In this document: positions 10,414 through 60,732 of the stretch, one piece after another
How positions within the stretch are numbered: the first letter of the stretch is position 1
How the letters are laid out: each line of letters opens with the position of its first letter
Assembly (NCBI GenBank): GCA_947475165.1
Contig: CANJLD010000003.1
Span: forward strand, 62,001 to 126,000
Reading direction: 5' to 3'
Source: Bacteroidota bacterium
Lineage (GTDB): Bacteria; Bacteroidota; Bacteroidia; Chitinophagales; LD1
Length of the DNA stretch: 64,000 nt
Notes under the pieces: generated by a model
What the model was told of the DNA's origin: nothing
The model's database searches: none
What the model saw: the letters and a program-made list of their open reading frames with translations, nothing else
Made by a program: the position numbers and the translations under genes

Positions 10414-11465
10414 AAAGAAAGTTCAAAGTTCAAAGTTCAAAGTTCAAAGTAAAGGCAGCGTGTGCCTTTATACTTTGGTCTTTGGTCTTTGGTCTTGTTT
10501 CTTATTCGCAGGATATACATTTTTCTCAATTCAATTTTTCATCGCTCAATCAAAATCCGGCTAACACAAATTTGTTCGATGGCGATTATCGGTTTGTAGG
10601 CAATTACAGAAACCAGTGGCCGAGTGTTCCTGTTCGGTTCAATACATTTTCAGCTTCGGCAGAAATGAATTTTCTGACTCTAAAAAACAATGACCGCATC
10701 GGTGGCGGTTTGGTTTTCTTTTTTGATAGGGCAGGCGATTCTCGTTTTACTTCTTTGAGTACAGCTCTTTCTGTTTCCTATATAAAGTCACTTGATAAAA
10801 AGAATCATCATGCACTTAGCGGAGGAATTCAATTTGGTTTAGTGAACAGGAATATCAATTACAGCAAATTGAATTTCGATAATCAATGGAACGGTGATGT
10901 GTTCGACCCGAATATTGCCGTGGATGAAAATTTTTTAAAAACAAGATTCAATTCTTTCGACCTCGGAATCGGTATTGCTTACAAATGGACGAAGGCGGAG
11001 CGGACAAATTTCACCATTGGCTTTGGAGCGACACACTTAACACAGCAGAAGCAAACTTTCTATAATGACAATTCGGTGAAGCTGAACCCGCGCTTTACGC
11101 TTCATGCGCGCGCGCATGTTAAAGTGGCTAAACAGTGGGATGTGGTTCCTGAGTTAATGTGGCAGATGCAGGATTCGAAATATGAAGTATGTTATGGTGC
11201 GCATGGGAAATATCATCTTGCTCTGAAAGGGGCGCACACGGTTGCAATCAATATGGGAGTGTATGGCCGCTCAGCAGAGTCCGGTTGGCTTTTTGCTGGA
11301 ATGGATTACGACAACTTACAGGTGAATTTGAGTTACGATTTAAATTTTTCGAAACTGCATGTTGCCAGCCGTTACAACGGAGGGTTTGAAGTGAGTGTGA
11401 TTTACATTTTAGCCAAAGTGAAAAAGATAAATAAACCCGGTGCAATATGTCCGGCATTCTTATGA
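10410..11465 (+). CDS. PorP/SprF family type IX secretion outer-membrane protein
   Basis: A 351-aa outer-membrane barrel of the PorP/SprF family, whose members anchor or assist surface delivery of CHU-type T9SS cargo. The mature N-terminus carries the family signature (QDIHFSQFNFSSLNQNPA, then NYRNQWPSVP, about residues 34-72), followed by alternating beta strands. It starts in an ATGA overlap with the cargo gene and ends in an ATGA overlap with the OmpA gene. The signal peptide is odd: its n-region (KVQSSKFKV) is encoded by four GTTCAAA heptads and its hydrophobic core (LWSLVFGLV) by three CTTTGGT heptads, that is, by simple-sequence DNA. Confidence 0.9.
   Translation: MKRKFKVQSSKFKVKAACAFILWSLVFGLVSYSQDIHFSQFNFSSLNQNPANTNLFDGDYRFVGNYRNQWPSVPVRFNTFSASAEMNFLTLKNNDRIGGGLVFFFDRAGDSRFTSLSTALSVSYIKSLDKKNHHALSGGIQFGLVNRNINYSKLNFDNQWNGDVFDPNIAVDENFLKTRFNSFDLGIGIAYKWTKAERTNFTIGFGATHLTQQKQTFYNDNSVKLNPRFTLHARAHVKVAKQWDVVPELMWQMQDSKYEVCYGAHGKYHLALKGAHTVAINMGVYGRSAESGWLFAGMDYDNLQVNLSYDLNFSKLHVASRYNGGFEVSVIYILAKVKKINKPGAICPAFL
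10421..10448. repeat. Heptanucleotide array (GTTCAAA)4 inside a coding sequence
   Basis: Four exact GTTCAAA units read in frame as the basic n-region of the PorP/SprF signal peptide. The same repeat recurs degenerately in the intergenic gap at 16692-16719. Confidence 0.9.
10473..10493. repeat. Heptanucleotide array (CTTTGGT)3 inside a coding sequence
   Basis: Three exact CTTTGGT units (with a partial fourth) encode the hydrophobic core of the same signal peptide, 24 bp after the GTTCAAA array. Confidence 0.9.
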
Positions 11466-13501
11466 GAAAATTGCGGATTGCGGATTGCGGATTGCGGATT
11501 GAATACAAAAAATATTTTTTTGTATTTCTGTTAGCTTTTAGCTGCTGTCTGTCGTCTTTCTCTCAAACTGTTTCACAACTTACCAAAGCAGGCGATAAAA
11601 AAATAGAAGAGGGAGATTACTACGCGGCATCGTTGTATTATAAGGATGCACTGAAAAAGGATGAAGAGAATATTGATTTGAATTTTAAGTATGCCGAGGC
11701 ATGTCGCATGTTTAATGATTTGCAAGGCTCTACTACCGGTTACCGCGCAGTAACTAAACTTGATAAAGCGAATCAATATCCAATAGCGAATTTCTGGCTC
11801 GGAGAAGTTTTGCGAAGCACTTGCGAGTGTAAATGTGAAGAAGCGCAGAAACAGTTTCACCGCTTTCAAACTAAATACCGAAGGAAAGATTATTTCTATG
11901 CCAAAGCCCAACAGGAAATAGAAGCTTGTGCTTGGGTGAAAGATCATTTAAAGAAAAACGATTCAATTAAGATTGAACATTTAGGGAAGGAGGTAAACAC
12001 TCCGCAATCGGAGTTTAATGCTATCCATGTTTTTCCTGATAAGATTCAATACTCTTCTTTGCGAAATATTTCAACCGACAAGAAGAACGAAAAGTATTTA
12101 GTGCGCTTGTATAATGAGCCACCCAATTTTGAACTTGTTTATATTCCCAATGGTTCGAACCAGGAACTGAACATTGGCAACGGAGCATATTCTCCCGATT
12201 CGAAAAAATTCTTTTTTACGCAATGTGAGCAGAAGGATAAGTCAACTACCCGTTGCGATATTTATGTAACGAAGTACGATAACTTTAAATGGTCACCGGC
12301 TGAAAAACTCAACGACCATGTAAACAATGCAAGCGCAACTAATACACAGCCCTCGCTTGGCTATGATTTATCCGGTAATGAAATTTTGCTTTTCTCGTCT
12401 GACCGCGAAGGCGGACAAGGCAAGATGGACATTTGGATGAGTAAGTTGAATGCTGATGGAACTTACTTGCAAGCAGTAAATGCGGGAAATAAAATCAATA
12501 CGCAGGGGAATGAAATCACTCCGTTCTATGATGTAAACAACCGCAAACTTTATTTCAGCAGCGATTGGCATTATGGGTATGGCGGCTATGATATTTTTGA
12601 AGCTGCGGGTGAATCTACCAACTGGACTGAGCCTAAAAATTTGTTGCAGCCTATCAATACTCCGCAGAATGATTTGTATTACACAAAAGCGATTGATGAT
12701 TCGCGGGCATACATTACTTCAAACAGAAAGGGTTCTTATTTTATAGAAGCCGAAACCTGCTGTAATGATATTTATGCTTACGGCACAGGAAAGAAAATTG
12801 AAAAGCGCGATACTGTTTTTGTTGTAAAGGCGGATACACCGGTTGTTGAGTTGCGTGATACTACTCCGGTAGTGCAAATAGAAAGACCGGTTACACAAAC
12901 AACCTTTATAGACGAAAAAATTAAAAATGTAAAGCAGAAGCTTTCTGTACAGCTTTATTTCCATAATGATGAACCCGGTGCTAAAAGCATGAGCGATACT
13001 ACCAACCTCGACTACAAACAAACGTATGAAGCATATTCTTCGCTGCGATACGAGTATGAGCGCGAGTATGCAAAAACGATGAAGAAGGAAGAACAGCTAA
13101 AGACTGAAGAGGAAATTACCAATCTGTTTGAAGATAAAATTGATAAAGGTTATTACGATTTAGTGGCGTTTGCTTCAGAGTTGCTCGCGCTTTTACAAAG
13201 CGGAAACAAAGTAGAAGTGACGGTGAAAGGATATTGCTCTCCTCTGAATTTTAATCAATACAATGTAAAACTCGGTTATCGCAGAGTGGCTTCGTTGCGC
13301 AATTATTTCTTTCATTACCGCGATGGCATTTTACTTTCTTATGTGGCTGCCGGTAAACTGAATATTAAAAACGAATCGTTTGGTGAGGAAACCGCTTCGA
13401 AAAATATCAGCGATAGCCGCGAAGACAAACGCAATTCGGTTTATAATCCTGCCGCTGCGTTGGAAAGAAGAGTTGAAATAATTTCGATTGAGGTGAAATA
13501 A
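11462..13501 (+). CDS. TPR-PD40-OmpA outer-membrane/periplasmic protein (PorE-like, T9SS-associated)
   Basis: About 679 aa. After a signal peptide come TPR-like helices (AGDKKIEEGDYYAASLYYKDALKKD, abbreviated; residues about 40-130). Next is a WD40-like PD40 propeller (YSPDSKKFFFTQC, ILLFSSDREGGQGKMDIW, LYFSSDWHYGYGGYDIF), and then a C-terminal OmpA-like domain (about 560-679) with VTVKGYCSPLN and a terminal ERRVEI segment that would contact peptidoglycan. This TPR-PD40-OmpA order is that of PorE and related proteins that tether T9SS components to the cell wall. I chose ATG 11462, which overlaps the PorP/SprF stop as ATGA, over the ORF-track ATG 11447. Immediately after the start the n-region (LRIADCGLRI) is encoded by four TTGCGGA heptads. 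Confidence 0.88.
   Translation: MRKLRIADCGLRIEYKKYFFVFLLAFSCCLSSFSQTVSQLTKAGDKKIEEGDYYAASLYYKDALKKDEENIDLNFKYAEACRMFNDLQGSTTGYRAVTKLDKANQYPIANFWLGEVLRSTCECKCEEAQKQFHRFQTKYRRKDYFYAKAQQEIEACAWVKDHLKKNDSIKIEHLGKEVNTPQSEFNAIHVFPDKIQYSSLRNISTDKKNEKYLVRLYNEPPNFELVYIPNGSNQELNIGNGAYSPDSKKFFFTQCEQKDKSTTRCDIYVTKYDNFKWSPAEKLNDHVNNASATNTQPSLGYDLSGNEILLFSSDREGGQGKMDIWMSKLNADGTYLQAVNAGNKINTQGNEITPFYDVNNRKLYFSSDWHYGYGGYDIFEAAGESTNWTEPKNLLQPINTPQNDLYYTKAIDDSRAYITSNRKGSYFIEAETCCNDIYAYGTGKKIEKRDTVFVVKADTPVVELRDTTPVVQIERPVTQTTFIDEKIKNVKQKLSVQLYFHNDEPGAKSMSDTTNLDYKQTYEAYSSLRYEYEREYAKTMKKEEQLKTEEEITNLFEDKIDKGYYDLVAFASELLALLQSGNKVEVTVKGYCSPLNFNQYNVKLGYRRVASLRNYFFHYRDGILLSYVAAGKLNIKNESFGEETASKNISDSREDKRNSVYNPAAALERRVEIISIEVK
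11471..11498. repeat. Heptanucleotide array (TTGCGGA)4 inside a coding sequence
   Basis: Four exact TTGCGGA units directly after the start codon of the OmpA-like gene, translated in frame as part of the signal peptide. Confidence 0.9.
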
Positions 13502-16679: not shown

Positions 16680-16713
16680 CAAATGTATAAAAGTTTAAAG
16701 TTCAAAGTTCAAA
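16680..16713 (-). promoter_or_regulatory. Candidate kup promoter overlapping a heptad repeat
   Basis: On the minus strand TACATTTG (16680-16687) matches TAnnTTTG exactly. A TTTG -33 box supplied by the AGTTCAA repeat is 22 bp upstream, slightly long for this class, and another is at 15 bp. The leader would be about 90 nt. Confidence 0.4.
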
Positions 16714-16719
16714 GTTCGA
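16692..16719. repeat. Degenerate heptanucleotide array (AGTTCAA)4
   Basis: Units AGTTTAA, AGTTCAA, AGTTCAA and AGTTCGA in the divergent gap between kup and the aquaporin gene. It is the same heptad as the in-frame array at 10421. Confidence 0.85.
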
Positions 16720-16785
16720 AGACAAAATGATGGATTTATTCAATTCACTAATTCTTCTACTTTTAAGCGAACAAAAAATTGAAGC

Positions 16786-18461: not shown

Positions 18462-19814
18462 ATGATTTTATCAGAAACATACAGACAGAAAATTAAGGAG
18501 GCACTCACACTTGCCTTGCCCATTATTGCGGGGCAATTGGGGCAGGTGCTAATGGGCTTTTTCGATACCGTGCAAATTGGCGGACTCGGTCACGAGTATA
18601 TAGCGGCATCGGGTTTTGCCAATGGCATTTACTGGATGACCATACTTGCCGGCATGGGTATTCTGTTTGCCGTTTCGCCATTGGTGAGCGAAGCCTTTGG
18701 CGAAAACAAAGGCTACAAAAGCATTGGCGTTTTAATCTCGAGTCTGGTGGTATCGCTTGTTCTTACAGTGGTGTTCATGATTATTATTTGGTTGATGGCA
18801 GCCAATCTTTCTGTTCTTAAACACAGCGAAACGGATACCGTTCTTGGCGGAAAATTTCTCTATCTCGTCAACTACTCCACCGGTTTTGTTTTCTTCTTTA
18901 TGGCAGCCAAACAGTTTTTAGACGGCATGGGCAGAACAAAAATAGGTATGCAGATTACGCTTGCCGGTTTAGTGCTCAACTGTTTTCTGAACTGGGTATT
19001 GATTTACGGCAGATTCGGTTTGCCGCAAATGGGTATTGAAGGTGCGGCAATTGCCAACGGAATTTCACGAGCCTTAATGACTATTGCTATTCTCATTTAC
19101 ATCTGGCGCGATGAACAGGTGCGTGAATTGCGCAAAGAATTTGTAAAACATATTGATGCCAGTTTAAGTTATGTAAAACCTATTTTGCTGATTGGAATTC
19201 CTGCAGGCTTGCAGTTTTTTTGGGAAGTAGCTGCCTTTAATGCCGGGCAAATTATGAGCGGTTGGATAAGCACTTCTGCCGAAGCCGCGCACATGATTGC
19301 CATTGGTCTGGCAAGTATCACTTTTATGGTGGCTACGGGCATTTCTGCTTCGGGAACAATTATGATTGGCTATTCGTTTGGTGCAAAGGACAAAGAAGGA
19401 ATACGTATTGCCGGTAACACGGTTATCCTGCTTACGCTGCTTATTGAAATTGTTTTTGCCGTTTTCTTTTTCAGTTGCCATGCGTTGCTGCCTGAACTTT
19501 ATACAGACCATGCGGAAGTTATTTCTATTGCTTCTTACATGTTGTTGTTTGCAGCTGTGTTTCAGATAAGCGATGGCTTGCAGGCTACCGCGGCCGGTGC
19601 TTTACGCGGTATGCAGGATGTAACCTATCCGGCAGTAATTGCCTTTATTTCGTATTGGCTGATTATGATTCCTGCCTGTTACCTGCTTACCTTTACTTTC
19701 CACTTCGGTTTAAAGGGAATATGGGTTGGCTTTATTATCGGGCTAACCGTCGCAGCCGTGTTACAATTAGTGCGGTTTAAATATGTATTGAAGAAATTGC
19801 AGTTTGAAGAATAA
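18462..19814 (+). CDS. MATE-family multidrug/metabolite exporter
   Basis: A 450-aa membrane protein with twelve hydrophobic segments in two homologous halves (about 10-220 and 235-445). The opening ALTLALPIIAGQLGQVLMGFFDTVQIGGLG (abbreviated) is the typical first MATE helix and loop. The conserved GMGRTKIGMQI and LRGMQDVTYPA loops follow TM4-5 and TM10-11. The family exports cationic or organic substrates by Na+ or H+ antiport; the substrate is not predictable. It is a monocistronic unit with its own terminator. Confidence 0.93.
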   Translation: MILSETYRQKIKEALTLALPIIAGQLGQVLMGFFDTVQIGGLGHEYIAASGFANGIYWMTILAGMGILFAVSPLVSEAFGENKGYKSIGVLISSLVVSLVLTVVFMIIIWLMAANLSVLKHSETDTVLGGKFLYLVNYSTGFVFFFMAAKQFLDGMGRTKIGMQITLAGLVLNCFLNWVLIYGRFGLPQMGIEGAAIANGISRALMTIAILIYIWRDEQVRELRKEFVKHIDASLSYVKPILLIGIPAGLQFFWEVAAFNAGQIMSGWISTSAEAAHMIAIGLASITFMVATGISASGTIMIGYSFGAKDKEGIRIAGNTVILLTLLIEIVFAVFFFSCHALLPELYTDHAEVISIASYMLLFAAVFQISDGLQATAAGALRGMQDVTYPAVIAFISYWLIMIPACYLLTFTFHFGLKGIWVGFIIGLTVAAVLQLVRFKYVLKKLQFEE

Positions 19815-19844
19815 AAAAGCCCCGCATTTTTGCGGGGCTTTTTT
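19814..19844 (+). terminator. Intrinsic terminator after the MATE gene
   Basis: AAAAAAGCCCCGCA-TTT-TGCGGGGCTTTTTT, overlapping the stop codon. The same GCCCCGCA stem is used for the rplQ terminator at 21891-21920 on the other strand. Confidence 0.9.
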
Positions 19845-19858
19845 GTTTTTGTCTATTG

Positions 19859-20145
19859 CTTCCGTGGTTTCCACGGCAATACTTTCTGCTCTCCAAGTGC
19901 CTCCGTGGCTTCCACGGCAACACTTTTTGCTCTCCAAGTGCCTCCGTGGGTTCCACGACAGCACTTTCTGTTCTCCAATTGCCTCCGTGGCTTCCACGTT
20001 GATAGTTTTTGTTCTCCAAGTGCTTCAGTGGTTTCCGCGACAATACTTTTTGCTCTCCAACTGACTCCGTGATTTCCACGGCAATACTTTCCGCTCTCCA
20101 AGTGCTTCCGTGGGTTCCACGATAGCACTTGGAGTACTCCGATTG
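19859..20145. repeat. Tandem array of seven 41-bp hairpin-forming units
   Basis: Seven consecutive units at a strict 41-bp period (the CCGTGG motif recurs at 19862, then every 41 bp to 20108). A consensus unit is CTCCGTGGCTTCCACGG plus CAATACTTTCTGCTCTCCAAGTG, about 80-90% conserved between copies. Each unit holds a CCGTGG-nnn-CCACGG inverted repeat. The last unit ends in an inverted copy of its own flank, giving an 11 + 5 bp hairpin (20096-20134: CTCCAAGTGCT...AGCACTTGGAG). The array fills the 334-bp convergent gap between MATE and the 559-aa gene. Since 41 is not a multiple of 3, five frames stay open by chance; no coding signal is seen. Confidence 0.9.
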
Positions 20146-20178
20146 TTAAAATGGAATTAAAAAAGGAGGTATTAGGCT

Positions 20179-21858
20179 TTACTGCTTCACCAATTGTCTC
20201 ACACTCCTTTCGCCACCGGCAATTACCTCTAAAAAATAAACACCGGCAGGCAGGTAGCCAAGCTCGAGGGTTTTGGTGTAGGTGCTGCTTAGGTTGCTCT
20301 CGTGTTTAGTGTAAACCGGGTGGCCTATTATATTGATTATGGTAAAGTCTGCTTGTTGCAGGTTTTCTTTTTGGATGGAGATGGAGAGTGTGGTGGTGAA
20401 GGGGTTGGGGGAGAGGGAAATATAAGTATTGTCTTTCAAATCAGTTGCATTTGTGTGGATAGAAGTATCTATACAAAACTTGATAATCCAGTAATCATTA
20501 CCACCCCTACTTGGTTGGGTACAATATCCGCCTGTATCTTGAATCTGCCCAGCTATAGTATAACAACCATCTCCGCTTGAATTAATCTTTCCAATTTTAT
20601 CAAGACCTGTAACGAAAATGGTTTTATCCCACTGCTTATTGCCTAACCAATCTGTTTTTACAACCCAAATATCTGAAGCGTTATAAGTAATTTCTGATTT
20701 ATCCCCCCCAACGCCAGAAGTCGAGATTCCAGCCATTATATATCCGTTATCTGAAGTTTGAAAAATATTCCCAACTGGACCTTCGTTATTTTCCCCTCCA
20801 AATCGTTTATCCCATTGCTTAATTCCTGCTCCATCAATTTTTACAATCCAATAATCTCCTTGTTGAGAAGGGTTCGGTGAAATATCCCAACTTGCTTGTG
20901 TTTTATCACCGCTTATTCCTGACTTTGAAATTCCTCCCAGGATATATCCTCCATCAGAGGTTTGCTGTAATGAATAACAAACATCATCACCTGTTCCCCC
21001 AAACCGTTTATCCCATTGCTTAATTCCTGCTGCGTCAATTTTTACAATCCAATAATCCCAACCACCCCAACAATCTTGCGTTTTATCTCCTCCAATTCCC
21101 GATCTTGAATTTCCACCTAAAATATATCCTCCACCTATAGTTTCCTGCAAAGAAGATGGGGCGTCAATATTTAACCCTCCGAATCTTTTGTCCCAAAGTT
21201 TATCTCCTTGAGAATCAATTTTTACAACCCAGTAGTCTCCCTGCGCCCCAGCGTAAATGTTTGCAGAAGTATCGCAACTTGTTTGCGTTTTATCTCCTCC
21301 AATTCCCGACTTTGACATCCCTCCCAAAATATATCCCCCGTCAATAGATTGTTGCAAAGAAAAGAGTTGGTCTACATTTAACCCACCAAATCGTTTGTCC
21401 CATTCCTTATTACCTAAAGCATCAGTTTTTACAATCCAATAGTCCCCTTTACCACTAATAACAGAAGAAGTATCTTGTGGATTTTGTGTTTTATCTCCGT
21501 TCATTCCAGAGGTCGACATCCCGCCCAAAATATATCCTCCATCATTTGTCTGCTGGAAACAATAAAGTTCATCAAAACTGTTACCTCCAAATCGTTTATC
21601 CCATTGCTTACTACCTAGTGAATCAGCTTTTACAATCCAGAAATCATCTTCACCTCTGCTACCCTCTGTTTTATCACCGCCTAAAACAGAATAAGAATAT
21701 CCTCCTAATATAAATCCTCCATCACTAGTTTCTTGAAATGAAGTAAAAACTTCTTCGTCAATTCCTCCAAACCTCTTATCCCATTGTTTTACTAAAGGGT
21801 TTTGCGCTGAAGAGAAAAAGAAACCAAGTAAAAAGAAAGGGAAGAGAAGGTGTTTCAT
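20179..21858 (-). CDS. Secreted repeat protein with T9SS type A sorting domain
   Basis: 559 aa. The signal peptide (MKHLLFPFFLLGFFFSSAQN) is followed by about seven imperfect repeats of 55-65 residues of the form KQWDKRFGG...LQQTSDGGYILGGxSxSGxGGDKTQ...DYWIVKID, a bladed beta-propeller-like arrangement. The last 80 residues are a type A T9SS sorting domain (LSPNPFTTTLSIS ... LPAGVYFLEV ... LVKQ). Expected location is the cell surface or secreted. No enzymatic motif is visible. It follows rplQ on the same strand but a terminator separates them, and its short upstream region overlaps that terminator. Confidence 0.9.
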   Translation of the reverse strand: MKHLLFPFFLLGFFFSSAQNPLVKQWDKRFGGIDEEVFTSFQETSDGGFILGGYSYSVLGGDKTEGSRGEDDFWIVKADSLGSKQWDKRFGGNSFDELYCFQQTNDGGYILGGMSTSGMNGDKTQNPQDTSSVISGKGDYWIVKTDALGNKEWDKRFGGLNVDQLFSLQQSIDGGYILGGMSKSGIGGDKTQTSCDTSANIYAGAQGDYWVVKIDSQGDKLWDKRFGGLNIDAPSSLQETIGGGYILGGNSRSGIGGDKTQDCWGGWDYWIVKIDAAGIKQWDKRFGGTGDDVCYSLQQTSDGGYILGGISKSGISGDKTQASWDISPNPSQQGDYWIVKIDGAGIKQWDKRFGGENNEGPVGNIFQTSDNGYIMAGISTSGVGGDKSEITYNASDIWVVKTDWLGNKQWDKTIFVTGLDKIGKINSSGDGCYTIAGQIQDTGGYCTQPSRGGNDYWIIKFCIDTSIHTNATDLKDNTYISLSPNPFTTTLSISIQKENLQQADFTIINIIGHPVYTKHESNLSSTYTKTLELGYLPAGVYFLEVIAGGERSVRQLVKQ

Positions 21859-27648: not shown

Positions 27649-27845
27649 TAGCAGTTGTTGGCGTTATCATCAGCAACCAAATCTAAACTTTCCATAAACA
27701 AAATGCCGTCACAGTTTAATCGAAACGGCTTTTAACTAAATAAAGGACAATTGCCCGAAAGGTAAGTGATTCCATTCGGTGTATCAACCCTCCCTTATCG
27801 TTTGTTTTTGAAGTGTTTTGTGCATATACCTTGAACTCATAATGT

Positions 27846-27919
27846 TTCGTCCCATGATCGCGATCATTTGCCGTGAACTTACAAGTATTCGCCCCGTGTT
27901 CGCGATCATTTAGCGGGAA
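27846..27919. repeat. Two 32-bp direct repeats at 42-bp period, with GATCGCGATC-type core
   Basis: TTCGTCCCATGATCGCGATC... (27846-27877) and TTCGCCCCGTGTTCGCGATC... (27888-27919), about 80% identical and ending 4 bp before the priA stop. Copy 1 has a perfect 14-bp palindrome ATGATCGCGATCAT (27854-27867); copy 2 has lost it by two substitutions. Confidence 0.75.
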
Positions 27920-27923
27920 GGGG

Positions 27924-30374
27924 TTAAGGGTCAACATCTACACTCACAGTTACGCTTCTCAACTCAGGTAGCGTCTTCATTTTATCAAGCACCGTTTGCA
28001 ACGCATGTTTAGCCTGCAACAACTGTTTCGAACCCAGACTGCTCTTAAGCAGAATCTCGCGGATGTAGTAATTGTTGATTTTAGAAACGAAGGGAATAGC
28101 CGGTCCAAGAATTTTTGCCGTATTTGTTTTACGCAACTCGTTGGCGAGAAACAGAGCTGCCTGCTCAATGGTTTGCACCTTGGTATGTTTTAGCGTCACT
28201 TCAATTACCCGTGCAAATGGCGGATACTGAAACTGTCTGCGCGACAGAATTTCGGTTTCATACATCCGTTTAAAATCGCTGTTCATTACATTATATATCA
28301 CCGGATGCGCAGGGTCACTGGTTTGCAACACTACACTTCCTTTTTTGTTTTTGCGTCCTGCTCTTCCCGCCACCTGCATCATTAATTGAAATGCGCGTTC
28401 GTGAGAGCGGAAGCCCGGATGATGAATGAGTTGGTCGGCATTGATAATGCCTACTAAACTCACATGGTCAAAGTCTAAACCTTTTGTAACCATTTGTGTT
28501 CCTACAAGAATATCTACCTCTCGGTTTTCAAACTCGGCAATCACCTTAGCGTGACCGTGTTTTGTTTTCATGGCATCATAATCTAACCGGCTTACTTTTG
28601 CCGAGGGAAATAGCTCTGCAATTTCATCTTCAATCTTTTCGGTGCCCATGCCTACAATATCCAAATCAATAGCCCCGCAGCTTTTGCATTTGTCAACCAC
28701 CTTTTCGTAGTAGCCGCAGTAGTGGCACTTTAACTGATGCGAAAACTTATGGTAGGTTAAACTCACATCGCAGTTCTTGCATTTGTAAACATAGTTGCAG
28801 GTTTTACAAACCTGATAATTGGCAAAGCCCCTGCGGTTCAAAAACAAAATCACCTGCTCTTTATTATTCAGTGCCTGACTTATGTAATCTACCAAGGTTT
28901 GCGTAAAACTGCCGCGCATCCGTTTCCACTTCGTATCATCCTTTATATTGGCTATGACAAACTCGGGCATTTCCATTCCGCCATAGCGTGTGTTGAGTTT
29001 TACCAAACCAAACTTTCCGCGTTCGGTATTATAGAAAGTTTCTACCGATGGAGTGGCAGTTCCTAAAATTACTTTCGCATTAAAAAGGGTAGCAAGCAAA
29101 ATCGAAGCATCGCGCCCGTTGTATCGTGGTGCTGGGTCGGCTTGCTTCATACTGTTGTCGTGCTCTTCATCTACAATTACCAATCCTAAATTTTTAAAAG
29201 GAAGAAACAAACCGCTGCGCGCACCAATCAGAATTTTGTATTCGCCATGCAGCACCTTGTTCCAAATTTCTACGCGCTCGTTCTGGTTGAACTTGCTGTG
29301 ATAAATACCAACTGATGTTCCGAATATTTTACGCAACCGGTTAATGATTTGCGCAGTAAGCGCAATTTCAGGAAGAAGGTACAACACCTGTTTGCCTTCG
29401 GCAATTACCGCTTTTATTTTTTCGATGTAGATATTGGTCTTACCCGAACCGGTCACCCCGTGCAGTAAAACCACATTCTTAGTTTCAAAATGCTGATTGA
29501 TTTCCGTCAAAGCAGTTTTCTGCTCCACGCTCAACTCCGGTGAATCCACATCACCTGTTTGCAAATTGCCGAGGCGCGAAACTTCCATTTTAAATTCGAT
29601 AAAAACATTTCGCTTAACCAAAGCTGCAAGCACAGCAGCAGAACTTTTAGATAAATCAAGCAGTTCGTTCTTGCGAATGAATTTTGATTTCTTCCCTAAC
29701 TGCGAAAAAGCGAGAAGCAGTTCCACTTGTTTTGGCGCACGACCTAATTCCGTGTAAATTTTTTCTAACTCATCTTCCTCTTCATACTTATCGTTCAGCT
29801 TAATGTAAGTTTCTGTTCGGGGTTTAAACTTCTCCACTACTTCTTCCGATGAAACTGCAATGCTCAGATTGAAAAGCGTTTTAAGCGCGCGATAAACATT
29901 TTTCTTCTTCAACAAATCCTGCACCTGTGGAATTTTTATTTCCTGCTGTGCGCGCAAAGCCTGCACAATCAAAAATTCTTCTTCGCTCAACGCTTCAAAA
30001 TCGCCATCGTAACTTTCGTTATAGCGTATTTTTGTCTCACTCGAAAGTTTTAATCCCGAAGGAAGGGCAGCGTTCATCACTTCGCCTTCGGTGCACATAT
30101 AATATTCGCTCATCCACTTCCAGAACTTCAATTGCGTTTCAGTCACAATCGCTTCTTCTTCGGCAAGTGTTTCAATCAGCTTTGCATCTACCACCGGTTT
30201 GTTGTGATGAATGCTTTTAATTATGGCGGAGTAAAAACGGTTTTTGCCAAACTGTACAATCACCCGCTGACCAATTTTTACAAAGGGCACCAAATCTATG
30301 GGCACCGCATAGGTGTAAGCCTGCGGCAAAGCCAGCGGAAGAATAACATCTACATAAGTAATTTGCGAACTCAC
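27924..30374 (-). CDS. priA: Primosomal protein N' (replication restart helicase PriA)
   Basis: 816 aa. PriA recognises stalled forks and D-loops, unwinds DNA 3'-5' and reloads DnaB. The N-terminal 3'BD/winged-helix region (about 1-200) precedes the helicase core with Walker A GVTGSGKTNIY (about residue 309) and Walker B VIVDEEHD (DEEH). A zinc-binding insert has the eight cysteines CKTCNYVYKCKNCD...CHYCGYY...CKSCG. Motifs V and VI (GTQMVTKGLDFDHV and QVAGRAGRKNKKG) are intact. It is divergent from the CotH gene (47 bp). All catalytic motifs are present, so it is functional by sequence. Confidence 0.97.
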   Translation of the reverse strand: MSSQITYVDVILPLALPQAYTYAVPIDLVPFVKIGQRVIVQFGKNRFYSAIIKSIHHNKPVVDAKLIETLAEEEAIVTETQLKFWKWMSEYYMCTEGEVMNAALPSGLKLSSETKIRYNESYDGDFEALSEEEFLIVQALRAQQEIKIPQVQDLLKKKNVYRALKTLFNLSIAVSSEEVVEKFKPRTETYIKLNDKYEEEDELEKIYTELGRAPKQVELLLAFSQLGKKSKFIRKNELLDLSKSSAAVLAALVKRNVFIEFKMEVSRLGNLQTGDVDSPELSVEQKTALTEINQHFETKNVVLLHGVTGSGKTNIYIEKIKAVIAEGKQVLYLLPEIALTAQIINRLRKIFGTSVGIYHSKFNQNERVEIWNKVLHGEYKILIGARSGLFLPFKNLGLVIVDEEHDNSMKQADPAPRYNGRDASILLATLFNAKVILGTATPSVETFYNTERGKFGLVKLNTRYGGMEMPEFVIANIKDDTKWKRMRGSFTQTLVDYISQALNNKEQVILFLNRRGFANYQVCKTCNYVYKCKNCDVSLTYHKFSHQLKCHYCGYYEKVVDKCKSCGAIDLDIVGMGTEKIEDEIAELFPSAKVSRLDYDAMKTKHGHAKVIAEFENREVDILVGTQMVTKGLDFDHVSLVGIINADQLIHHPGFRSHERAFQLMMQVAGRAGRKNKKGSVVLQTSDPAHPVIYNVMNSDFKRMYETEILSRRQFQYPPFARVIEVTLKHTKVQTIEQAALFLANELRKTNTAKILGPAIPFVSKINNYYIREILLKSSLGSKQLLQAKHALQTVLDKMKTLPELRSVTVSVDVDP

Positions 30375-42301: not shown

Positions 42302-43816
42302 TTATGGTTTAACAATCAATAATTCTAAATGCGATTGAAAGCCGCCTGTAGCTCCCGCCAACTGAATGTTGGTAGTGCCGGTAGGTCCTGCATGCGCTCC
42401 ACGCACATCAATAGTGTGCGAACCGGCAGTAAAGTCACCGGCATAAGCAATAGCCCATTGCCCGTAAGCGAAAGTAAGGCTGGTAGCACCATCTAATATT
42501 GAAACGCGTTGAAGTTTAGTGCTGGCTGCTCCGTCAATAAAAATTTCTAACTGTGCCGTGCAATCAGCAAACGAACCTAAGTTCAATGCGGTACCGAAGG
42601 CGTTAGCCACAATATGCCATGTTTCTCCGGCAGGTACAGTAAATGAATAAGTACAGTTAGGCAACTGCACATAAGTAATAGCACCAGTAGGTGCCTGTGT
42701 TAAAGCAGTTAATGAAGCAAGGTTTACAGTAGCTGTGTTATTAGCAGCTGAAGAACCAGTTGCACCGGTAGCACCGGCATTACCTTGTGCGCCCTGCGCG
42801 CCCTGTGCACCTTGCGGTCCCTGAATACCTTGTATACCCTGATTCCCCTGATTTCCCTGTGGTCCTTGTGCGCCTGTAGCACCTGCAGGTCCTTGCGGTC
42901 CTGTTGCGCCATCTGCTCCTGTAGCACCTGCAGGTCCTTGCGGTCCCGTTGCACCATCTGCTCCATCGGCACCGGTAGCTCCTTGTGCGCCTGTAGCACC
43001 ATCTGCTCCATCAGCACCGGTAGCTCCCTGTGCGCCTGTAGCACCGTCTGCTCCATCAGCACCGGTAGGTCCTTGTGGTCCTGTAGCACCATCTGCTCCA
43101 TCAGCACCGGTAGGTCCTTGTGGTCCTGTAGCACCATCTGCTCCATCAGCACCGGTAGGTCCTTGTGGTCCTGTAGCACCATCTGCTCCATCAGCACCGG
43201 TAGCTCCCTGTGCACCAGTTGCACCGGTAGTACCCGCAGCCCCCGTAGAGCCTTGTGCGCCTGTTGCACCATCGGCACCTGCAGCTCCGGTAGCACCTGT
43301 TGCTCCATTAGCCCCCGGTACGCCAGCCGCTCCCTGAGGACCGGTTGCTCCGTTAATTCCCGGAACACCTTGTGGTCCGGTAGGTCCGGTACTTCCAATA
43401 GGGCTGTTGCCAGCATATAAGGCGTAAGGAACGCTTAGTAATTGCGAAGTTCCCATATCGGTAAAACTGCTGCCACCGGCCACGTCAATTTCTACCTGTA
43501 AATATTTAGCACCGTTGCTCCAGTTTACAGTAGCAAGGTTCGAAGTTCCCCCAATGATTTGTGTAATTAAACCAAACTGATTGGTTACCGCTGTATTGGT
43601 TTCGGTAAATACTACCGTACCGGTTGGTGAGCCATCATGTATATTGAAACGCACGGTAATGTTTGTTCCGCCCACAATAGGGTTTCCGGCAACATCACGC
43701 ACAATTGCCTGATAGTTTAATTTTTGCGGTGCCTGCGAAAATGCAGGAGAGAAAAACGATAAAACAAAAAGGAAAACAAATAGTTTCCTGACAGTAGTGT
43801 AAAGATTCGCTAGCAT
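42302..43816 (-). CDS. Secreted collagen-like protein with 15-residue perfect repeats
   Basis: I chose the ATG at 43816 ([22 protein letters not shown]; about 503 aa) over 43849. The domain shared with its neighbours ([21 protein letters not shown] ... [14 protein letters not shown]) spans about 25-140. A collagen-like Gly-X-Y region follows (about 145-350), including seven 15-residue [15 protein letters not shown]-type units. The C-terminal domain of about 145 residues ([20 protein letters not shown]...) is beta-rich and is not recognised. There is no T9SS sorting domain. The long plus-strand ORF over this gene (42785-43420) is an artefact of the Gly-X-Y codon pattern. Confidence 0.87.
42906..43220. 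repeat. Seven 45-bp tandem units in a collagen-like gene
   Basis: Units start at 42906, 42951, 42996, 43041, 43086, 43131 and 43176. The three from 43086 are nearly identical over 45 bp (GCACCATCTGCTCCATCAGC...), indicating recent duplication; each encodes 15 residues in frame. Confidence 0.9.
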
Positions 43817-43912
43817 GGTAAAATGTTTTAGTGTGTAAAGTGTACGCAATGTAACGGTAAGAAATTAAAAAAGAGAATTTTTCAAACGAAAATAAAAAGG
43901 GAACATTAAGGT

Positions 43913-49246
<5,334 letters not shown>

Positions 49247-58830: not shown

Positions 58831-60732
58831 TTATAGTCGAATCAGCTTCTTCGTAAAGATATTTTTACCAGAACTTATTTTCAACAGGTAAACTCCTTTG
58901 GCAAAATCTAAACGGATTTCTGATTTCTGGTTTCTGATTTCTGATTGATAAATCAGCCTGCCAGTGTTGTCGAATATTTCGAGCGATGCGCCCAACAGGT
59001 TATTTTCAATTTCTAAATTCCATCTGCCAGAAGTGAGCGGATTCGGATAAACACTCAATCCGTTCTCAATAGTCAAATCATTGATACCGGTAACGGTTAC
59101 AGGAGTTGCGTTAGATAAAGCAGTGCAACCATTTGTATCGGTAACCAATACCGAATAATTACCCGATTGCGGAGTGATATACATAGAAGTATTAGCTCCG
59201 TTTATAAGATTGTTATTGAAATACCATTGGTAAGAACTGGCTCCATACGCATTTAATGTATCGCCATTCACGCTGATGCTAACCGGTGGCTGTGGATGAA
59301 CAGCAATAGCAATATGATTCGACTCTGCGGTGCAGTTTGAATTATCGGTTACGGTAACATAATAGTTACCTGCCTGTTTTACATAAATACAGGCTGACGT
59401 TGCACCGGTACTCCAGACATAAGCATTAAAGCCGTTTGGCGCACAAATCTGTGCGCTGTCATCAGCACAAAAAACAAGTTTATTGGAAGTAATAGTAACC
59501 GTAGTGCCGATGCTTGAATTTACGGTAACGCTTGCCGTTGCACTGCATCCGCCAGTGGCGTTTACGGTAACAGTGTAAGTTCCCGATGGAAGATTTGAAA
59601 TAGATGCGGTGTTTCCGCTATTGCTCCATATATAACCGGTAGCTGTTCCCGAAGTAACCGTAACTGTTGCTGTACCGTTGCTGTTTCCGCAACTGGTGCT
59701 GATAGAAGAAGTTGAAATGGAAAGTGTGGACGAAGAAGTAATTGTAATAGAATCAACAGTGCTGCAAGTATTTGCGGCATCGCTTACTGTTACATAATAT
59801 TTGCCACCGGTAGTAATCGTATCGTTTGCGCCAATTACTCCATTGCTCCAGTTAAAAATTGCACCGGTAGTTGTTGAAGAAGCAATAATAACAGTACTGG
59901 TATTAGAACAAGTAAGCGGTGCGGGATTATTGAAGCTGACTGTTGGTGTAACAAAAGGCTGTCCGTTATTATTCAAAGAATGAATCCATGCAGCGTTAGC
60001 AGGATTGTTTGGTGCGCCCGGTGTTTCTGTAGCAGCAGTAGTGTCAACAAAATTGGCTGAGTTAAAAGGATTATTGTCAACCGCGTTTGTCATGTAAATA
60101 TCTTTTGCGTTTTGCGCTAAGCTGTAATATACATTCAATGCCGTGTTCACGTTCCCCCAGCCAATGGCAAAATAAGCCACCGAATAATTAGCCGGTGAAA
60201 CGGTATGAAAAGCATCACCGCTGTTTGCCATTCCTAAACCTGACCATGTACCGGTGGGAGAATACGTAGTTCCACCAACAGCGTAAGTGGTCATTGTTCC
60301 GTTGCTTGCAGGCAGGTTGGTATTTTTTTGCAATACCGAAGAGCTAACCGGAATTACATATACATAATCGTTGTTGGCATCGTTAGTATCAACCGTTAAT
60401 GCATGAATAGAAGAACTTGTGTCTGCATCATTATAAATAACAATGAGTGAACCGATTTTTACGTTTGCCCATTGAGGAATGCTGTCAAAGCGCACATGTC
60501 CAGCCGCTATCCCTGTTCCTGCTCCGGTGGCATGCCAGCTGTTGTTGTCATCAATAACCCATCCGCGCAAATCAACTGTGTTACTGCCTCCACAGGTTGG
60601 TGTACCGGTAACTAAGAGCTCTACAAATTCCTGGGAACCGGCAGGCCCCTGCGAGAGTTCGTTAATAATTAGCTGTGCATTGCTTGCAGTGGCTGTAAGG
60701 ATGAGCGTGAATAAGAGACTAAACTGTTTCAT
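58831..60732 (-). CDS. Lamin-tail/SprB-repeat secreted protein with T9SS type A sorting domain
   Basis: About 633 aa from ATG 60732 (MKQFSLLFTLILTATASNAQ signal peptide). A lamin-tail (LTD) domain follows directly (LIINELSQGPAGSQEFVELL), then two or three Ig/SprB-like modules (GYIWSNSGNTASISNLPSGTYTVTV; AYVWSTGATSACIYVKQAGNYYVTV, abbreviated). The C-terminus is a type A T9SS sorting domain (VYPNPLTSGRWNLEI ... KGVYLLKI ... KKLIRL). Within it EIRNQKSEIR is encoded by a heptad repeat. LTD domains in this phylum often accompany secreted nucleases, but no nuclease is visible here. It is convergent with the GT51 gene (4 bp). Confidence 0.88.
   Translation of the reverse strand: MKQFSLLFTLILTATASNAQLIINELSQGPAGSQEFVELLVTGTPTCGGSNTVDLRGWVIDDNNSWHATGAGTGIAAGHVRFDSIPQWANVKIGSLIVIYNDADTSSSIHALTVDTNDANNDYVYVIPVSSSVLQKNTNLPASNGTMTTYAVGGTTYSPTGTWSGLGMANSGDAFHTVSPANYSVAYFAIGWGNVNTALNVYYSLAQNAKDIYMTNAVDNNPFNSANFVDTTAATETPGAPNNPANAAWIHSLNNNGQPFVTPTVSFNNPAPLTCSNTSTVIIASSTTTGAIFNWSNGVIGANDTITTGGKYYVTVSDAANTCSTVDSITITSSSTLSISTSSISTSCGNSNGTATVTVTSGTATGYIWSNSGNTASISNLPSGTYTVTVNATGGCSATASVTVNSSIGTTVTITSNKLVFCADDSAQICAPNGFNAYVWSTGATSACIYVKQAGNYYVTVTDNSNCTAESNHIAIAVHPQPPVSISVNGDTLNAYGASSYQWYFNNNLINGANTSMYITPQSGNYSVLVTDTNGCTALSNATPVTVTGINDLTIENGLSVYPNPLTSGRWNLEIENNLLGASLEIFDNTGRLIYQSEIRNQKSEIRLDFAKGVYLLKISSGKNIFTKKLIRL
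58914..58948. repeat. Heptanucleotide array inside a T9SS sorting domain
   Basis: Units GGATTTC, TGATTTC, TGGTTTC, TGATTTC, TGATTGA, translated on the minus strand as SEIRNQKSEIR within the sorting domain. Confidence 0.88.

Follow-up and report, generated by a model that had tools for sequence, protein, structure and literature searches.

The locus examined here raises the question of what a row of hairpin-like repeats is doing between two converging genes, and in particular whether it acts as RNA, as a protein-binding platform on DNA, or not at all, as a minisatellite would. In the window, by which we mean the whole stretch of 64,000 nucleotides that was analysed, the array occupies positions 19857-20145 (no strand assigned) of a non-coding gap and consists of seven 41-bp units in perfect register. 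TRF calls it at 19857-20121 with period 41, 6.5 copies, 81% matches and zero indels, and a repeat finder returns seven copies with every spacing equal to 41; the two programs thus agree on the exact period that the initial annotation had read from the letters. Identity at lag 41 is 0.785, compared with a maximum of 0.386 among 20,000 shuffles. From the left, a MATE-family transporter gene (18462-19814, plus strand; PF01554, 4.2e-49) converges on the array and ends in an intrinsic terminator (19814-19846, plus strand; AAAAAA-CCCCGCA-TTTT-TGCGGGG-T run) just left of the first unit. From the right, a gene for a secreted protein with a type IX secretion sorting domain (20179-21858, minus strand; PF18962, 9.8e-10) converges on it as well. 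Gene calls and profile matches therefore bear out a non-coding array lying between a terminator and a type IX secretion gene. No long gene runs across the array, and although short ORFs cross it, in five frames, a 41-bp unit shifts the frame at each copy. In the genome G010, the stop codon of the orthologous MATE gene is followed by a different, 21-bp array (L112, CAATGYTTGA..), and the same gene end thus leads into unrelated arrays in two species.

Each unit carries a main dyad, H1, of the form CCGTGG-NTT-CCACGG. The seven copies lie at 19862-19876 (unit 1, CCGTGG-TTT-CCACGG), 19903-19917, 19944-19958, 19985-19999, 20026-20040, 20067-20081 and 20108-20122, none with an assigned strand. A CCGTGG/CCACGG stem had been claimed for every unit; dyads are indeed found at all seven positions, but the stem is damaged in unit 5 and carries a single mismatch in unit 6. 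A weaker dyad, H2 (for example CACTT-N10-AAGTG), lies halfway between neighbouring H1 dyads, so dyad centres recur every 20-21 bp along the array. The last unit is capped by a larger closing hairpin (20096-20134), found just as described, with 11 bp in CTCCAAGTGCT..AGCACTTGGAG and a further 5 bp in CGTGG/CCACG. The array ends at 20126-20151 in a near-palindrome, CACTTGGAGTACTCCGATTG, followed by GTTAAAA, and this type of right end also closes five other arrays (L003, L005, L006, L128 and L178).

The 41-bp unit is not confined to this gap. Further arrays occur in the window genome (G000) at C40:12008, C17:51167, C3:251007 and C4:108111, most of them having CCGTAA/TTACGG as their stem. A covariance model detects at least 20 more, all in a single sub-clade of the genus; two that lie outside it were picked up with an exact pattern. 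The model (R1) finds clear arrays in G000, G024, G001, G004, G010, G025, G021 and G007, weak ones in G003 and none in 12 genomes of sister genera from the same family. When CCGT-N7-ACGG pairs were allowed any gap from 15 to 45 in 18 genomes of the genus, the period was exactly 41 in all cases. The same pattern with free spacing, scanned across 84,980 species, yields period 41 in members of the genus, in Bacteroidia Bin_39 and in Ignavibacteria BS750m; other periods are mostly multiples of three, read as coding, and the remaining non-coding arrays have periods such as 32, 36, 46-47, 51-52 and 55. Period-41 arrays from Phycisphaerales (L050, L052) consist of overlapping GC-rich dyads and are probably unrelated. 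The arrays sit in convergent, tandem and divergent gaps.

The 41-bp arrays belong to a larger population that emerged when arrays were surveyed on stretches picked regardless of repeats. The sample from G000 covered 864 kb and contained 21 non-coding tandem arrays, of which 19 have a period of 21n+/-1, a class that makes up about 14% of the periods scanned; their best periods are 21, 41, 42, 43, 63 or 84, and the other two arrays have 33 and 49. By extrapolation, the whole genome would hold about 85 arrays. The corresponding share is 5 of 6 in G004 and 8-9 of 10 in G010, depending on the counting of 104. Samples of other genomes gave one array in 144 kb of G005/G009, one in G007, none in 200 kb of G025 and none in the G021, G022 and G023 samples, and genomes sampled at the level of the order held nothing beyond 7-bp repeats. 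Autocorrelation of intergenic DNA, taken as the fraction of matches between intergenic positions and independent of array calling, shows peaks in G000 at lags 21, 42, 63, 84, 105, 126 and 147. G010 gives the same series with a weaker tooth at 105, and the comb is absent from the array-poor order-level controls. The arrays of this 21n class are mostly unrelated in sequence between loci, L214 and L254 being visibly related, and no motif is common to all of them. The window itself contains a second non-coding array of the class, at 27814-27926 (period 42, no strand assigned), which is unrelated to the 41-bp array and has GATCGCGATC palindromes.

Other repeats in the window are of different kinds. 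Heptanucleotide repeats of about 4.6 copies each lie at 10418-10450, 11470-11501, 16690-16721 and 58915-58946, with units AAAGTTC (twice), ATTGCGG and GATTTCT; one of them precedes a KUP transporter gene by about 110 bp, and 7-bp repeats are found in order-level relatives too. Long coding repeat tracts, collagen-like with periods of 9/18/27/45, occupy 42861-48148.

Several simple accounts of the 21n periods were rejected. Coding repeats do not explain them: 41 and 43 are not multiples of three, open frames are no commoner than in column-permuted arrays, and substitutions are spread evenly across codon positions in most arrays. Nor is 41 bp a dimer of related 20/21-mers, the match at lag 20-21 being 0.26 against a background of 0.25. 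Within an array, some columns are better conserved than others (P<0.05 in 17 of 25); the idea that the 21-bp unit has a conserved and a variable half fails, as conserved columns are unclustered (combined P 0.59). Spacing is exact in 198 of 199 cases, though adjacent units differ at 33% of sites. The detector favours indel-free arrays, however, and arrays simulated at ordinary indel rates get through it with just 1-4% of spacings deviating; we have therefore downgraded strict spacing to modest support. Array periods near 21n, multiples of two helical turns, suggest phased protein-binding platforms rather than structured RNA.

The behaviour of the stems bears on the choice between RNA and DNA. 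A covariation test on 21 arrays, each represented by one consensus, finds six of the seven stem pairs altered in both arms (25 cells, reached in 0 of 500 shuffles), and the paired fraction drops to 35-53% in slid controls. H1 takes the forms GG/CC, AA/TT, AG/CT, CAT/ATG and TGTGG/CCACA, with the dyad kept throughout. A clear pair is formed by the last unit of the window array, TCCGTGG-GTT-CCACGAT, and G004 TTTACAT/ATCGCAT-GTT-ATGCGAT, which have the flank AGCACTTGGAGTACTCCGATTGTTAAAA in common. A single locus keeps both its neighbours in two species (it is L183 in G010 and L189 in G025). There, the six units of G010 all read TGTAA or CGTAA..TTA and the G025 units TGTGG/A..CCACA, the whole array having switched from AA/TT to GG/CC or GA/CC. 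The folding and covariation check proposed in the initial annotation thus comes out in favour of compensated stems. Since second loci also exist, in the genome and in its relatives by both pattern and covariance model, the original observation survives the two outcomes, a solitary locus and uncompensated stems, that had been named as counting against it. In a 21-bp array at L215:13108-13442, the palindrome core alternates between GTCCAC and GTGGAC while the flanks stay constant, as if small cruciform loops invert.

A transcript of one strand with tandem hairpins would account for this covariation and for the strong folding, and 41-bp arrays do lie on the 5' side of one gene family at seven loci (see below). 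Both strands fold equally, however (z -6.83 each), and among 924 cells the departures from Watson-Crick pairing are 58 A.C and 42 G.T; such similar numbers, together with equal folding, favour no RNA strand, and the constraint looks to be at the level of DNA. The expected G.U bias is absent, the H1 loop conserves nothing except a central T, a search of Rfam returned no family at or above its gathering cut-off, and the placement of arrays in all three kinds of gap is likewise awkward for a transcript. We consider a structured RNA very unlikely. Of 27 arrays sampled for dyad symmetry, 9 rise above a column-permuted null, and the symmetry is thus not universal.

Two gene families accompany the arrays. 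Gene Y encodes a 125-aa helix-turn-helix protein that weakly resembles Xis/Cox/HTH_17, with a match below the cut-off, and is present in only 4 of 18 genomes, G000, G004, G010 and G024 (loci L170:2621-2998, L177:3317-3694 and L187 to 3013). The first three are the genomes shown to be array-rich, and G024, which the comb sampling left out, has many 41-bp arrays. In all three contexts read (G000, G004 and G024), a 41-bp array directly follows the Y stop codon; the units of these arrays are diverse, and many have GTC or GAC at the dyad centre. The nearest relatives of G004, G025 and G021 (91-94% amino-acid identity), have no Y and no 21n array in 280 kb sampled, so the match between Y and arrays is not simply that of one clade. 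These two genomes and G001 do contain a few 41-bp arrays without Y, because of which Y is put forward as a putative binder and no more. Y is nevertheless the leading candidate for a protein involved with the arrays. A precedent is the MerR-like BldC, which binds direct repeats as head-to-tail multimers (PMC5859096) and shows small winged-helix proteins to be capable of coating such repeats head to tail. Gene family X is multi-copy and about 328 aa long, and seven of its loci, spread over four species, have a 41-bp array on the 5' side (L167:3423-4409, L168:1926-2909, L176, L179, L183, L186 and L189). More distant copies of X have no covariance-model match nearby, and X has no match in Pfam, NCBIfam or PDB.

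We tentatively read the window array as a helically phased binding array on double-stranded DNA. Dyad-symmetric sites would stand in a row two helical turns apart, with 20-21 bp between dyads and 41 bp per unit, and a dimeric or head-to-tail oligomerising protein would bind them cooperatively along one face of the helix, leaving the intergenic segment protein-covered, bent or insulated. The array would be one member of a genome-wide class in which the sequence varies by locus and the unit length stays near 21n bp. H1 dyads that are compensated while their letters change, roughly equal A.C and G.T departures as a DNA dyad predicts, sites spaced in whole helical turns, the comb and its absence from order-level controls, and the restricted occurrence of Y all argue for this reading. 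The lack of a common motif, awkward for a single binder, the limited number of arrays with dyad symmetry above the null, and the arrays in genomes without Y argue against it. The comparisons demonstrate the array and its dispersed family, the compensated dyads, the quantised 21n periods, the absence of coding and of a bias towards one RNA strand, and the distribution of Y. That a protein binds the arrays, that Y is the binder, and any function are what we infer from them. A broader proposal, which we regard as doubtful, is that the lineage has built about a hundred two-turn-unit arrays per genome, differing in sequence by locus and maintained or generated with Y, as a system of DNA architecture that passes on spacing and dyad symmetry and not sequence.

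The serious rival, only somewhat less probable in our estimate, is that the arrays are neutral or selfish minisatellites, arising from a mutational process in this lineage that tends to duplicate, in tandem, stretches of about two helical turns. Each array would then be homogenised by slippage and unequal exchange, and template-switch correction of imperfect palindromes would copy mutations from arm to arm; such correction could mimic stem compensation without selection, and we therefore keep this rival. It fits the unrelated sequences at different loci, units that change in concert within an array (AA/TT in all of them, or GG/CC in nearly all), the change in copy number between orthologous arrays (seven units at L188, six at L191), the location in intergenic gaps without a clearly preferred orientation of the genes, and the symmetric A.C and G.T departures. 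It leaves unexplained the quantisation at 21n, given the assorted periods of non-coding arrays elsewhere, and sits poorly with uneven column conservation and with a distribution that follows Y and not the species tree. An improbable further option is a mobile element of MITE type that contains a minisatellite, akin to MITE464/PgRS and BrickBuilt and mobilised through its ends by a transposase. The right end shared by several loci and species, inverted left ends in some arrays (TTTTTTAACATTCGG..) and the 41-nt tandem direct repeats of PgRS in Porphyromonas gingivalis (PMC4596501) speak for it. The window array does not carry the end motif at each of its ends, however, the motif flanks no IS-like pairs, and neither a target duplication nor an empty site was found; among 155 conserved neighbouring gene pairs compared for empty sites, an array occurred at only one, where both genomes have it. 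A common IS with ends TTTTAACATTCGG was rejected on zero paired matches. Taken together, the array is real and on present evidence not an RNA. Among the three options offered in the initial annotation, the protein-binding array is best supported and structured RNA is weakened; a phased array acting at the DNA level is the most likely explanation, with a minisatellite close behind.

In bacteria, minisatellites are mostly regarded as noise or as typing markers, and their unit length comes with no expectation. Non-coding arrays of unrelated sequence at multiples of two helical turns would point either to a mutational machine that measures length or to selection on DNA geometry, and either reading can be tested with few genomes and one purified protein.

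The array was also compared with known systems. CRISPR was rejected: the whole 41-bp unit repeats and, as had been noted from the letters, there are no unique spacers. Elsewhere, at L228:26-596 in G009, there is a CRISPR-like array with a 47-bp repeat, GTTGTGTAACAAAGAACGAGAAATACATTCTGAAAGCAAATCACAAC, and unique spacers of about 30 bp. REP/BIMEs, which carry GTAG or CGTC tags and are associated with RAYTs (PMC3733652), are likewise short intergenic palindromes, sometimes clustered, but the window array lacks the GTAG/CGTC tetranucleotides and has a head-to-tail 41-bp register. A REP/RAYT system was rejected: the lone Y1 transposase match in the genome is weak and partial (33.7 bits) and lies on another contig; Y1 matches are more numerous in genomes without arrays. 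Iterons and phased direct-repeat operators such as BldC sites (PMC5859096) resemble the array in having repeats in helix register that could take a cooperative protein; the arrays differ in being chromosomal, at many loci and of unrelated sequences, in the absence of a replication gene beside the window array, and in that their binder is putative. In the limited collection of literature searched, we found no description of a quantised population of unrelated arrays. BrickBuilt of P. gingivalis (PMC4596501) is, like the window array, a minisatellite between genes that shows dyad symmetry and frequently lies close to terminators, but has a 23-nt unit, forms one sequence family with leader and tail, and bears IS5-type ends. 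Closest is MITE464/PgRS, reported from P. gingivalis only, where 41-nt tandem direct repeats occur and 22/23-nt repeats are also present (PMC4596501). Judged by published unit length, it shares with the window array its occurrence in Bacteroidota, intergenic position, multiple copies, 41-nt tandem direct repeats and lack of spacers. It differs in the IS5-type terminal repeats GAGACTGTTGCA/TGCAACGGTCTC of PgRS; no such repeat lies 300 bp or less from the 41-bp arrays examined, and membership in the IS5 MITEs was rejected on that ground. The statement that no named family has this unit was thus nearly right, in that the terminal repeats differ, although 41-nt repeats had been reported. The PgRS repeats show that this kind of object is already known in Bacteroidota, and the 21n arrays would in turn offer a framework in which to view the unexplained repeats of 41 nt and 22/23 nt in P. 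gingivalis.
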